Below are positions 20,181 to 24,266 of a stretch of 64,000 bases of DNA, one piece after another. Position numbers and translations under genes: made by a program. This DNA comes from Natronosalvus rutilus (GTDB lineage: Archaea; Halobacteriota; Halobacteria; Halobacteriales; Natrialbaceae), in assembly GCF_024204665.1 (NCBI RefSeq), contig NZ_CP100355.1, positions 124,001 through 188,000 of the forward strand, written 5' to 3'. The notes below the pieces were generated by a model. That model saw nothing but the letters and a program-made list of their open reading frames with translations, was not told the DNA's origin and ran no database searches. The first letter of the stretch is position 1. Each line of letters starts with the position of its first letter.

Positions 20181-21137
20181 TCACACCACCCGGTTCGTGA
20201 ACGCCTCGCCCGCCTCGAGTCGACGGACGTTCTCCCGGACCAGGCCGGCGATGTCCCGGTAGTAATCGACGGTGAACGCCGCACTGTGGGGCGTGACGAT
20301 CACCTCGTCCATCGCCCAGAGGGGCGAGTCGGACGAGAGCGGTTCGGTCTCGAACACGTCGAGGGCCGCTCCCGCCACTTTGTTCGCCTCGAGTGCGTCG
20401 ATCAGGGCCGCCTCGTCCACGACCGGGCCGCGGCCGACGTTGACGACGTAGGCGTCCTCGTCCATCGCTTCGAAGACGGCGGCGTCGAGCAGGCCGCGCG
20501 TCTCGTCGGTCAACGGGAGCGTCGAGACCACGAAGTCGACGCCGGAAACGGCCTCAAGCAGGGCGTCGGTCGTGTAGATGTCGTCGAATCCGGGGACGTC
20601 TTCGGGGGTGCGACGGACGCCGCGCACCGAGACGCCCAGGGAGCCAGCGACTTCGGCGACACCCTGGCCGAGAGTGCCGGTGCCGACGACGCAGGCCGTC
20701 GTTCCGGGAAGGGTGAACGCCTCGTCCCAGTCGGGCTGGGTCCACTCCCGGCGCTGCTGATTGGCCACGTGACGGTGGAGTCGTCGGGAGAACGCCAGCA
20801 GGTAGCCGGCCACCGTCTCGCCGACCGTTCGATCGTGGATGCCGGTGCTGTTGGTGAGAACCACGCCCTCGCGTTCGAAGACGTCCATCGGGAAGCGGTC
20901 GACGCCCGCCTGGACCGAGTGAACCCACTCGAGGTCGGCGAACCATTCCCGGTGCTCGAAGGTGACGATGGCTTCGCAGTCAGTGTCGTTGTGGTCCTCG
21001 TCCTCGACGAGCGATACCGTCACGGGGAGGTCCTCGAGCGTTTCGATCAGTTCCTCGGGCGGGAACACGGTCGAAACGGACCGGTGAACGCCGAGGTGCT
21101 CGAGGTCGATATCGGGTGCGGCATCGAAATCAGCCAT
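20181..21137 (-). CDS. D-2-hydroxyacid dehydrogenase
   Basis: 318 residues from the ATG at 21137. A two-domain NAD(P)-dependent dehydrogenase of the D-2-hydroxyacid family: nucleotide-binding glycines in VVGTGTLGQG (~residue 145), the catalytic Arg region NVGRGPVVDE, the Glu region ALDVFETEPL and the catalytic His in VTPHSAAFT. It would interconvert a 2-keto acid and a D-2-hydroxy acid in the cytoplasm; the side chain specificity cannot be read. A longer open frame to 21218 lacks support. Confidence 0.92.
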   Translation of the reverse strand: MADFDAAPDIDLEHLGVHRSVSTVFPPEELIETLEDLPVTVSLVEDEDHNDTDCEAIVTFEHREWFADLEWVHSVQAGVDRFPMDVFEREGVVLTNSTGIHDRTVGETVAGYLLAFSRRLHRHVANQQRREWTQPDWDEAFTLPGTTACVVGTGTLGQGVAEVAGSLGVSVRGVRRTPEDVPGFDDIYTTDALLEAVSGVDFVVSTLPLTDETRGLLDAAVFEAMDEDAYVVNVGRGPVVDEAALIDALEANKVAGAALDVFETEPLSSDSPLWAMDEVIVTPHSAAFTVDYYRDIAGLVRENVRRLEAGEAFTNRVV

Positions 21138-21288
21138 GACTGGCGGTACGGACGACTGGTAGTTCAACGTTCCTGCGGCGAGTAGGAGTGGGCGGCTCGG
21201 TATTGAATCCCTCGTCACACGGGGCTCGGTGGGGGTAACTCCTCGTCACCGCCGCCCGCTCGTCGGTACGACTCGAACGGGTTTCGGT

Positions 21289-22701
21289 CTATCGTTTCTC
21301 CCGCCAGGCCGCGAATTCGCGTGCCTCCTCGACGAGGGCCGTGACGTCGTCGGGCTCGAGGACGCCGCGTTCGGTGACGACCTCGGTCACGCACTCGGCG
21401 GGCGTCACGTCGAAGGTCGGGTTCGTGACGTCGAACGGCGCGTCGCCGCAGTAGACCGCGTTCCTCGAGCCGGACTCGAGCGCGATTTCCTCCCGAGTCG
21501 AGACCTTGTCGCTCGCGGCGACGATCGTCACGGGGATTTCCTCGTGGACGGCCGCGAGCGCCACCCCACGGGTGCCGGTCTTGTTGACGACGACGCCATC
21601 GGGACGAATCGTGTCGGCGCCGACGACCACCTGGTCGACCGACTCGCGCGAGAGGAGCGACGCCGCCGCGGCGTCGGTGTGGAGCGTCACGGGGCGCTCG
21701 TCGGCCAGCGACTCGGCGACGCCGACGCCCTCGAGACCGGGGCGGGATTCGGCGACGTAGACGCGGTGCGCGTCGCTCGCTCGAATCGCCTCGAGCACGG
21801 TTCCCGATCGCGAGAGCGTCATCACGGTTTCCTCGAGACGGTCGCTCGCCCGGGCCGCAGCCTCGTCGTCGGCGGTCGCGGCGCGCTCGAGGACGGCCGT
21901 CGTCGCCTCGAGGACTGCGGCGGCGTCCGGGGCCGGGGTTTCGTCCTCGCTTGCCTCGCCGCCGTCGTCGCCTTCTCGACCGGCATCGAGCGCCGTCCCC
22001 ATCGCCCGATCGACCCGGTTCCGGAGGACGGCCATCGACGGTCGGGCCTCGAGCAGGCGTTCGGCGAGGGTCGCGAGTTCGTCCCACTCGTCGTCGTGAG
22101 CGGGCGTCTGTCCCTCGTTCTCGAGCGCCAGTCCGTCGTCGAGTTCGCTCCCCTCGAGCGACTGTTTCCCGTCCGCGCGCTCGGCGACGAGCAGTCCCGC
22201 CCGGTCCCGCAGGACCTCGAGTCCCCGGATCGAGAGCCACGCGGCGCCGTGGTCGGCGTCAGCGGCGATCGAGCGCACAGTCGGTGCCACTCGCTCGTAG
22301 GCTGCCCAGAGGCCGGGAACCGTCTCGTACTCGCCCGTGAGGATCGCCGTCGGGTGTGCCCACTCGTGGACGTCGTGTTCCTCGCTCAACTCGACCTCGC
22401 GGGCGTCGCAGTCGAACAGGTAGGGGTGAACCACCCACTCCCGGCCGATCTCGGCGTCGGTCACCTCGAGCGGCCGACCCGACCGAACGAGCGTGCAGGC
22501 GTCCTCGAGGCCGGTCTCCTCGGCGATTTCGCGGCGAGCCTGCGCGTTGGGGTCGCCCTCTGCAAAGCCGGAGACGGCGCCCCAGGTCCCTGTGTAGGTG
22601 CCGACGGCGTCGCTCCGACGCGCCAGCAGGACCTCGCCGGCGTTGCGGAGGAAGGCGGTGACGACCTGGCTCGGTTCGTCGCCGTTCGTCGAATCGGTCA
22701 T
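21289..22701 (-). CDS. Nudix hydrolase / IF2B-family fusion protein
   Basis: 470 residues in two domains. Residues 1-~145 are a Nudix fold with a modified box, GFAEGDPNAQARREIAEETG, two residues shorter than the standard G-x5-E-x7-REUXEEXGU and lacking its first Glu. After an acidic linker (~residues 235-260) comes an IF2B/ribose-1,5-bisphosphate isomerase-like domain with VVGADTIRPDGVVVNKTGT and VAASDK. The catalytic Thr-His-Cys of the isomerases is replaced by Thr-Leu-Ser in VMTLSRSGTV. Nucleotide sensing or an altered reaction is therefore as likely as isomerase activity. Cytoplasmic. Confidence 0.85.
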   Translation of the reverse strand: MTDSTNGDEPSQVVTAFLRNAGEVLLARRSDAVGTYTGTWGAVSGFAEGDPNAQARREIAEETGLEDACTLVRSGRPLEVTDAEIGREWVVHPYLFDCDAREVELSEEHDVHEWAHPTAILTGEYETVPGLWAAYERVAPTVRSIAADADHGAAWLSIRGLEVLRDRAGLLVAERADGKQSLEGSELDDGLALENEGQTPAHDDEWDELATLAERLLEARPSMAVLRNRVDRAMGTALDAGREGDDGGEASEDETPAPDAAAVLEATTAVLERAATADDEAAARASDRLEETVMTLSRSGTVLEAIRASDAHRVYVAESRPGLEGVGVAESLADERPVTLHTDAAAASLLSRESVDQVVVGADTIRPDGVVVNKTGTRGVALAAVHEEIPVTIVAASDKVSTREEIALESGSRNAVYCGDAPFDVTNPTFDVTPAECVTEVVTERGVLEPDDVTALVEEAREFAAWREKR

Positions 22702-22770
22702 GCGAAAAACGAGGCGCGCTCGCGGGGTAGCGTTTTCGGAGACCGATATCTGCGTCCGTCACCCGACCCC

Positions 22771-23337
22771 TCAGTTGCCGTCGCCGTACTCGTACTCCTC
22801 GGGGTCCTCGACGCCCTCGGTTCGCGAGCCGACCCAGGCACCCAGCGAGAGGCCGTACACCAGGTGGCCGGCGTGAAATAGCGCGAGTTCGTCGGACTCG
22901 AGGCGAATGTCGAGGATCTCCTTGAGCATCACCTGCGAGCCGAACGCCGACAGCGCCATCCCGTACACCGCACCCCAGACGAGGCCGCGCTGTTCGGGTT
23001 CGATGGCACGGTCGGCGTCGAACAGGGCGAACAGCCCACCGAAGAGCGCGCCCGCCTGGACCCCGTAGACGAAGTGCAAGACGAGACCGGCTACGGGGTG
23101 GTCGCTCGGGTCGTCGCCGGTCACGTACTGCGCCCAGAAGTTCGCCGACGGCGGCAGCGAGCGCAGGATCGGCAGGCGGAAGGCGGTCATGATCAGCGTC
23201 GCGACGAAGCCGGCCTGGACGCCTCGAGCGACCGCGTCGGCGACGTGGTGTTCGCGTGGACGGTCGTCCGCCTCGCTCGAGCGGCCCTCGGTCCCGGCGA
23301 TCGAACGCAGGCGTCGGAGGTGGTCAGCCACAGCCAT
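22771..23337 (-). CDS. Conserved haloarchaeal integral membrane protein
   Basis: 188 residues from the ATG at 23337. It has four hydrophobic segments: residues ~45-65, ~85-108, ~122-142 and ~155-175. A charged N-terminal tail precedes them and an acidic tail (VEDPEEYEYGDG) ends the protein. Small motifs are YVTGDDPSDHPVAG and LFHAGHLVYG. Its composition suggests a small integral protein rather than a transporter with a recognised signature. I do not recognise the family. It lies in the same direction as the Nudix/IF2B gene, 69 bases upstream of it. Confidence 0.7.
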   Translation of the reverse strand: MAVADHLRRLRSIAGTEGRSSEADDRPREHHVADAVARGVQAGFVATLIMTAFRLPILRSLPPSANFWAQYVTGDDPSDHPVAGLVLHFVYGVQAGALFGGLFALFDADRAIEPEQRGLVWGAVYGMALSAFGSQVMLKEILDIRLESDELALFHAGHLVYGLSLGAWVGSRTEGVEDPEEYEYGDGN

Positions 23338-23495
23338 CGTGGTCACGAGTGTGGCCTACCACGGACGTCACCTTAATCGCGAGGCGTGCACCTTCCGACA
23401 TCGGCGGTATCCTCTCCCGACTCGGCAACCGGTCTGGCACCGGCCGCGGTCTCCGGTGACGGTGCGTTTTTCACCCTCCTGACCCACCCTCGAGT

Positions 23496-24266
23496 ATGGA
23501 ACTCAATGCGGTGCCGGACCTCCCCGAGATCCGCCCGGGAGACGACCTGGCAGGACTCGTCGCCGAGCGGACCGACGTCGAGGCCGGCGACGTGCTGACG
23601 GTGGCGAGCACGGTCGTCTCGAAGGCCGAGGGTCGGGCGGCGGACCTCGACGACTTCCCGGCGGGCCCGCGCGCCCGAGAGATCGCGACACGGCTGGAGG
23701 GAATCGCCGGCGAGGAGAAAGATCCCCGGTTCGCCCAGGCGGTCCTCGAGGAGAGCACGGAACTCGTGATGGAGGCGCCCTTCCTGCTGACCGAGACCCG
23801 CTTCGGCCACGTCTGCGTGAACGCGGGGATCGATCGCTCGAACGTCCCCGGTCACGACCTGCTCCTGTTGCCGAAGCGCCCGGCGGCGAGCGCCGAGCAA
23901 ATTCGAAACGGGTTGCTCGAGCGCGGGATCGAGGACGTCGCCGTGATCGTCACCGACACCTGTGGCCGGCCGTTTCGCCACGGCCAGCGCGGGGTCGCCC
24001 TGGGCTGGGACGGCATGCCCGCGAGTCGCGACTGGCGGGGCGAACGCGACCGCGACGGCCGCGAACTGGGCGTCACCGTCCAGTCGGTCGTCGACGAACT
24101 CGCCTCGGCCGCGAACCTGGTGACCGGCGAGGGCGCGGGCGGCACGCCCGCCGTCGTCGTCCGCGACTGGAACTTCGGAAACCACGAGGGAAGCGACGCT
24201 CTCTTTCGCGACCTCGAGGGGGACTTCGTTCGGCAGGCGCTCCGCGAGTGGAGGTACGAGGAGTGA
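23496..24266 (+). CDS. cofE: Coenzyme F420-0:L-glutamate ligase
   Basis: 256 residues. CofE adds glutamate to F420-0 using GTP, finishing the polyglutamate tail of coenzyme F420. Family motifs are VLTVASTVVSKAEGR (residues ~33-47), ETRFGHVCVNAGIDRSN, the DTCGRPFRHGQRGVALG block, and the C-terminal NLVTGEGAGGTPAVVVR. The stop codon overlaps the start of mer (tgatg), so the two are translationally coupled and form an F420 operon. Confidence 0.95.
   Translation: MELNAVPDLPEIRPGDDLAGLVAERTDVEAGDVLTVASTVVSKAEGRAADLDDFPAGPRAREIATRLEGIAGEEKDPRFAQAVLEESTELVMEAPFLLTETRFGHVCVNAGIDRSNVPGHDLLLLPKRPAASAEQIRNGLLERGIEDVAVIVTDTCGRPFRHGQRGVALGWDGMPASRDWRGERDRDGRELGVTVQSVVDELASAANLVTGEGAGGTPAVVVRDWNFGNHEGSDALFRDLEGDFVRQALREWRYEE

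Follow-up and report, generated by a model that had tools for sequence, protein, structure and literature searches.

A Nudix-IF2B fusion protein of haloarchaea with serine in place of the isomerase cysteine

The gene considered here lies in a 64,000-nucleotide stretch of the Natronosalvus rutilus genome (the window) and encodes a Nudix domain fused to an IF2B-like domain, each with an altered catalytic motif. The locus raises the question of whether such a protein is a broken enzyme, a translation factor, a sensor or an enzyme with a changed reaction. An earlier note on the sequence had suggested that both halves may have lost or changed their activity, and that the protein may be a sensor or catalyze a new reaction linked to nucleotide salvage. 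Most haloarchaea carry a member of the fusion family, as do some bacteria without aIF2. Through this family one can ask how an enzyme fold for sugar phosphates turned into a sensor or took on a different reaction, which is also the question behind the origin of eIF2B.

The apparent orthologue in Haloferax volcanii, HVO_1934, has been described as a 43.2 kDa 'NUDIX family hydrolase/eIF-2B domain protein' with the name aIF2Bsu (PMC8576121). According to this published annotation, it has the same two-domain architecture and a similar size, and orthology was assigned from annotation and architecture. A search of the open-licence literature found neither a biochemical study or assay nor a ligand or solved structure for any protein of the family, and for HVO_1934 it found only deletion and pull-down data. 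The features of the gene in the window are collected in Table 1.

Table 1. Features of the Nudix-IF2B fusion gene in the window
Feature	Position	Strand	Remarks
Nudix-IF2B fusion gene	21289..22701	minus	ATG start, 470 aa; apparent HVO_1934 orthologue
Nudix domain, residues 11-140	22282..22671	minus	Pfam NUDIX; AF2 pLDDT >90 over most; VIA-align
Nudix box, G45-L65	22507..22569	minus	two residues short; Pro51 for first Glu; Glu58/61/62 kept
IF2B-like domain, residues 145-466	21304..22269	minus	Pfam IF-2B; VIA-align
TLSRS motif, residues 295-299	21805..21819	minus	Ser297 at catalytic Cys position; Ser299 at 5-phosphate ligand Ser137
Glu324	21730..21732	minus	position of R15P isomerase 1-phosphate ligand Gln166
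GAD...NKTGT, residues 361-377	21571..21621	minus	catalytic Asp363 and sugar/phosphate ligands Asn373, Lys374 kept

The two domains and the Nudix box

Both domains were recognized by their Pfam profiles, NUDIX over residues 12-119 (36.9 bits, cut-off 21.1) and IF-2B over residues 195-449 (164.1 bits, cut-off 22.4). An AF2 model calculated with 48 sequences in the alignment had a mean pLDDT of 91.7 and a pTM of 0.90. The model was compared with known structures by VIA-align, where rows within Z 1 of each other were treated as ties. The N-terminal part matched the Nudix protein 2fkb (Z 16.6, 2.4 A over 131 residues) and 3grn (Z 16.5), so that the protein belongs to the Nudix clan by its fold as well as by its Pfam score. 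The IF2B fold spans approximately residues 139-469, and the C-terminal part matched the ribose-1,5-bisphosphate (R15P) isomerase 5yfs with a Z of 31.8 (2.8 A over 292 residues). Wild-type and mutant R15P isomerase structures were tied as matches and, for this reason, the top rank of the C135S mutant structure was not counted as evidence.

A set of 130 members was gathered, consisting of the window protein, 49 sequences from Halobacteria genomes and 80 from named genome records. The set includes a few truncated sequences and many that are close kin (Natrialbaceae). The 119 distinct members comprise 117 haloarchaeal and 2 gammaproteobacterial sequences; the bacterial loci L129 and L133 are included in the sets of 119 and 118 and are counted again among the six bacterial copies described below. 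The 80 loci from named records were retrieved by peptide patterns covering residues ~159-168 and 317-326, which inflates the conservation of Glu324, Arg165 and Asp166 among them; in the 50 sequences chosen without these patterns, Glu324 was present in 49 and Arg165 and Asp166 in all 50. Ser297 and Asp363 lie outside all of the search patterns. One locus (L049, 4257-5318) carries a seemingly truncated copy in which the GAD/NKxGT region is missing; it may be a pseudogene or reflect an assembly break.

The Nudix box of the window protein is G45-FAEGDPNAQAR-R57-E58-IA-E61-E62-T-G64-L65. The earlier note had read it as two residues short and without its first glutamate, and both points were confirmed. 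The distance from the glycine to the glutamate of the 'RE' pair is 14 residues, compared to 16 in the consensus, and position G+6, a glutamate in the consensus, is Pro51. The shorter spacing was found in 93 of the 111 members in which both ends could be aligned and Pro51 in 115/119, while Arg57 occurred in just 19/119. The box therefore differs from the canonical GX5EX7REUXEEXGU in its spacing, in the proline at the first glutamate and in an arginine that is not conserved in the family. In MutT, the glutamates of the Nudix box are metal ligands. Glu58, Glu61 and Glu62 were each present in 112 of the 119 members, and all three together in 108. These remaining glutamates, and the intact Asp363 and Asn-Lys-x-Gly-Thr motif of the other half, had escaped the earlier note.

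The fusion gene as a whole is under purifying selection, with dN/dS values of 0.25-0.36 against three relatives. For the Nudix half the values were 0.14, 0.24 and 0.26 and for the IF2B half 0.29, 0.26 and 0.39 (against L005, L006 and L014, respectively). Since three of the four box glutamates are kept and dN/dS in this half is 0.14-0.26, a loss of Nudix hydrolase activity in the window protein is not supported. The proposal that activity is altered in both halves thus stood for the IF2B half, which lacks the catalytic cysteine in every member, and not for a loss of hydrolase activity in the Nudix half. As judged from the alignment, clear damage to the Nudix half is confined to some other lineages and does not extend to the window protein. 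At least one of Glu58, Glu61 and Glu62 was missing in 11/119 members, one of them a truncated ORF (L115). The ten that are full-length all retained the IF2B pocket signature (10/10), even though six of them lack two or three of the glutamates. One of the glutamate-losing members, L119 of Halococcus thailandensis, was modelled with Nudix-fold strands and a helix in addition to the IF2B domain (pLDDT 93.7).

The pocket of the IF2B half

The R15P isomerase of Pyrococcus served as the reference for the pocket. The ligands given in its structural description (PMC5789824) are Arg22, Arg65, Gln166 and Lys215 for the 1-phosphate, Ser137, Lys240 and backbone groups for the 5-phosphate, and Asp204, Asn214 and Lys215 for the sugar. 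The same report describes the C135S mutant as inactive while still binding R15P with a Kd of 13.8 uM, and the C135A mutant as unable to bind. A joint alignment was made of 118 fusions and 16 archaeal R15P isomerases, one of them from the same genome as the window.

The alignment with isomerase enzymes, a comparison that the earlier note had proposed, placed Ser297 at the catalytic cysteine (Cys133/Cys135) and Asp363 at the catalytic aspartate (Asp202/Asp204) of R15P isomerase. The fusion residues T295-L296-S297 correspond to Thr-His-Cys of the R15P isomerase encoded in the same genome, and the reported substitution of Thr-Leu-Ser for Thr-His-Cys was borne out across the family. The cysteine position is serine in 118/118 fusions in the joint alignment (119/119 distinct members overall) and cysteine in 16/16 isomerases. 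At the position of Gln166, which is glutamine in 16/16 isomerases, all 118 fusions have a glutamate (Glu324). The His134 position is leucine in 114/118 fusions and histidine in 16/16 isomerases, and the Arg22 position (fusion residue 151) is histidine in 109 and arginine in 8 of the 118 fusions and arginine in all 16 isomerases. The same-genome isomerase (L001) has THC and GAD and scored 456.5 bits with TIGR00511 (cut-off 314.1); as it keeps THC, salt adaptation is not the explanation of the change from cysteine to serine. A delta-like paralogue in the same genome (L003) carries THD.

Mapping by profile alignment showed that the equivalents of Ser137, Lys240, Asp204, Asn214, Lys215 and Arg65 are kept. 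The fusion residues at the retained sugar and 5-phosphate ligand positions are Ser299, Asp363, Asn373, Lys374 and Lys399. The 1-phosphate ligand equivalents Lys374 and Arg220 are also retained, which leaves a bisphosphate ligand possible. At the AMP site, all six residues examined (Arg190, Lys194, Asn209, Arg229, Trp231 and Asp290) are replaced in the fusion profile consensus, and Val251 falls in a gap. The Lys226-Glu287 contact of R15P isomerase is also lost in the fusion, which may bear on whether it forms a hexamer.

Ser297, Thr295, Ser299, Thr301, Met223, Arg229 and Pro321 were each found in 119/119 distinct members, and Asp363, Asn373, Lys374 and Gly376 each in 118/119, the remaining sequence being gapped there. 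Some of the invariant residues, such as Met223, Arg229 and Thr301, are new to the fusion and common to its archaeal and bacterial members. Because Pro51 occurs in 115/119 and Ser297 in 119/119, the motif changes are neither chance nor a sequencing slip. Judging from these counts, the pocket is under strict selection and is not decaying, and in its residues the fusion is the natural counterpart of the substrate-trapping Cys-to-Ser mutant of the R15P isomerase. In a phylogenetic tree, the fusion IF2B halves formed a single clade (100/99) separate from R15P isomerase, MtnA and the delta-like paralogue. The Nudix-IF2B fusion is probably a distinct protein family and not a broken enzyme or a translation factor.

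Distribution and gene neighbourhood

A profile search (E <=1e-60) detected the fusion in 191 of 242 Halobacteria genomes and in 68 of 73 genera. The 51 genomes without it include one congener of the window's genome. One genus (g26) is mostly without the fusion, with the gene in 5/30 genomes as counted by eye. In a sample of 294 genomes from the phylum, full-length fusions (E <1e-100) were present in 36 of 53 Halobacteria, also counted by eye; there was no full-length fusion in the 241 genomes from outside Halobacteria, where the best match had an E-value of 7.7e-45 and covered the IF2B half only.

The fusion was also found in two named records of uncultured Gammaproteobacteria and in one gammaproteobacterial order, where 6 of 109 genomes have it; in a sample of the class, the seed genome was alone among 369 in carrying it. 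The possibility that these copies are mis-binned contigs is countered by bacterial neighbours common to several genomes. Three genes each occur in five of the six bacterial loci (L129, L133 and L190-L193), some of which end early: one resembling iron-dependent alcohol dehydrogenases, one for a GGDEF-EAL protein and one resembling c-type cytochromes. Glu58, Glu61, Glu62 and Ser297 are kept in 6/6 bacterial copies, and the full window-type signature in four, if alanine or serine at position 153 is taken as equal. One of the other two has serine for Thr377 only, and the other has Pro221 replaced by Thr and Arg320 by His. No copy was found in viruses with the bacterial form as query, and 112 plasmid records matched part of the query, none of them covering 80%. 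The fusion was likely exchanged between archaea and bacteria, with either direction possible: haloarchaeal monophyly was not rejected in a tree with an outgroup (p-AU 0.445), and it is the distribution that bears on the direction of transfer.

In the window (20181-24266), the gene order is D-2-hydroxyacid dehydrogenase, fusion, a divergent cofE and an oxidoreductase that we take to be LLM-class from its open reading frame. This order is kept across many haloarchaeal families. The D-2-hydroxyacid dehydrogenase gene lies downstream on the same strand in at least 58 of 100 fusion loci, and cofE is found upstream in the opposite orientation in at least 47 of 100, loci with short flanks included in both counts. 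The order may be functional or inherited. A gene for a DUF6789 membrane protein (22771-23346, minus strand) lies between the fusion and cofE; among the loci examined, it was seen otherwise only in the closest relative (L005).

A positive co-occurrence with R15P isomerase was not found. The isomerase is present in 114 of the 191 genomes with the fusion and in 43 of the 51 without it, a negative association (Fisher p 0.0009, uncorrected for kinship) that is driven at least partly by one genus mostly without the fusion. The link to nucleotide salvage was therefore not upheld: the isomerase is not positively associated with the fusion, none of the AMP-site residues checked is retained, and the genes nearby are cofE, the LLM-class gene and the D-2-hydroxyacid dehydrogenase gene.

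Possible functions and comparison with known systems

The reading that we tentatively prefer, while granting that it may well be wrong, is that of a sugar-phosphate protein, self-contained and with an altered pocket, in which the IF2B half would be the working core and the Nudix half an accessory. The protein would probably be an enzyme, and otherwise a sensor. The predicted ligand is a sugar phosphorylated at position 5 or 6 but not at C1, and the protein would not interconvert ribose-1,5-bisphosphate and ribulose-1,5-bisphosphate. With less assurance, a self-contained enzyme might use Glu324 and Asp363 for acid-base chemistry near C1, although a glutamate-based mechanism is a guess from the position of the residue. 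In most lineages the Nudix half would probably be a metal-dependent hydrolase or a nucleotide-binding module whose role is to provide or gate the sugar phosphate; a merely accessory role is disfavoured in the window's clade, since the Nudix half there is as constrained as the IF2B half. Counted against this reading were the arginine at position 151 in 8/118 fusions, the deletion of HVO_1934 without a phenotype and the absence of the fusion from 51/242 genomes. A more specific proposal, possible though we would sooner doubt than assert it, is that the family constitutes a new functional class in the IF2B fold: a cysteine-free sugar-5(6)-phosphate enzyme with a glutamate at the former 1-phosphate site beside the aspartate, fused to a Nudix domain and exchanged between haloarchaea and gammaproteobacteria.

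A pure sensor has also to be considered and is somewhat unlikely; its IF2B pocket would bind a sugar phosphate without converting it, and the signal would pass to the Nudix half or to another partner. The natural serine is the laboratory mutation that binds R15P without turnover, and strict conservation of the pocket may itself mean sensing, because the change from Cys to Ser removes the only known chemistry of the fold. Moreover, eIF2B-alpha, which keeps the same sugar and 5-phosphate subset, is activated by sugar phosphates, and non-catalytic Nudix domains of multidomain proteins are described as binding small molecules or proteins (PMC5389931). However, if the output were the protein's own Nudix half, the pocket would be expected to decay where the Nudix glutamates are lost, and it was kept in 10/10 such members; a sensor dependent on a partner would less likely have been retained after transfer to bacteria. 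An enzyme is favoured over a sensor because the pocket is invariant, outlasts the Nudix glutamates where these are lost, and persists in bacterial hosts without the archaeal partners. The choice of catalysis over sensing and the casting of Glu324 as a catalytic residue are the weakest inferences made here. The earlier suggestion of a sensor or a new reaction agrees with the absence of the catalytic cysteine and with the abolition of R15P isomerization by the Cys-to-Ser mutation (PMC5789824); both readings are compatible with these facts and neither was singled out.

A bifunctional salvage enzyme is improbable. In this reading, an ADP-ribose-type substrate would be cleaved by the Nudix half, and the ribose 5-phosphate set free would be the substrate of the IF2B half. 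The three box glutamates are present, also in all six bacterial copies, and a pocket for the sugar and 5-phosphate without a full 1-phosphate site would suit ribose 5-phosphate. Against this stand the missing first glutamate, the rarely conserved arginine and the altered spacing of the box, the persistence of members with damaged boxes, and the isomerase and AMP-site results given above.

The annotation as a subunit of the translation initiation factor aIF2B is very improbable. It agrees with the homology to eIF2B subunits, the IF2B fold and a single pull-down link of aIF2Bsu to an RNA polymerase subunit (PMC8576121). However, the NCBIfam models for IF-2B alpha and delta gave the fusion 68.2 and 64 bits, compared to cut-offs of 339 and 249. 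The published account of the Haloferax deletions (PMC3828320) reports viable single and double mutants of HVO_1934 and HVO_2706 and no growth phenotype of the HVO_1934 single deletion in 12 conditions, and its authors doubt the annotation; for the double mutant, its text describes wild-type-like growth and the legend of its Figure 6 lists differences on complex medium, sucrose and xylose. In the reported pull-downs, HVO_1934 showed one or two interactions; the three putative subunits were not recovered as a complex, and aIF2Bdelta was not co-isolated with aIF2Bsu (PMC8576121). Furthermore, aIF2-gamma over the TIGR03680 cut-off was present in the window's own genome and in 0/6 bacterial hosts, which disfavours the aIF2B label for HVO_1934; a sub-threshold match of 128.7 bits in one bacterial genome (G516) is probably another translational GTPase. 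We infer that the fusion acts independently of aIF2. The labels 'translation initiation factor subunit' and 'Nudix hydrolase' are both unsafe for genes of this type.

An R15P or methylthioribose-phosphate isomerase of the ordinary kind, active with serine in place of cysteine, would share the fold and most pocket residues with the fusion, but can hardly be right given the inactive C135S mutant of the Pyrococcus enzyme (PMC5789824), scores of 96.2 bits with TIGR00511 and 89.5 bits with TIGR00512 (cut-offs 314.1 and 279), the latter a methylthioribose-1-phosphate isomerase model with serine at its cysteine position in the fusion, and a full R15P isomerase with THC in the same genome. No more credible is a Nudix hydrolase of thiamine (ADP-thiazole) synthesis, for which the Haloferax Thi4 route is reported to need a yet unidentified NUDIX-type hydrolase (PMC4215014), or a factor linked to F420 through cofE, as the bacterial genomes have only short partial Thi4 matches (best 3.7e-7, compared to 3.1e-49 in the window's own genome; they pass Pfam's low cut-off, as do 14/14 controls), cofE is absent from 6/6 bacterial hosts and its linkage may be inherited gene order, and the IF2B half would be left unexplained.

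Among known systems, R15P isomerase (TIGR00511) shares with the fusion the IF2B fold, the catalytic aspartate, the Asn-Lys-x-Gly-Thr motif and the equivalents of Ser137 and Lys240. The fusion differs in having Ser for Cys, Leu for His, Glu for Gln and, in most members, His for Arg, in the replaced AMP site, in its N-terminal Nudix domain and in a score far under the family cut-off. NudI (3n77) and the MutT-like protein 3grn of M. mazei have in common with it the Nudix fold and the box glutamates corresponding to Glu58, Glu61 and Glu62; unlike them, the fusion has a box two residues short, proline for the first glutamate and no family-conserved arginine in 'RE'. The nearest parallel in the pocket is eIF2B-alpha, which keeps the sugar and 5-phosphate residues without those for the 1-phosphate (PMC5789824) and binds sugar phosphates in the ancestral pocket and is activated by them (PMC8187479). 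Both proteins lack the catalytic cysteine, and sugar-phosphate binding is proposed for the fusion. However, the cysteine position is alanine or glycine in eIF2B-alpha (PMC5789824) and serine in the fusion, which also keeps the aspartate and is without eIF2B partners in its bacterial hosts. If the fusion is indeed a new functional class, the IF2B fold would, together with eIF2B-alpha, have lost the isomerase cysteine at least twice while keeping the sugar-phosphate pocket.
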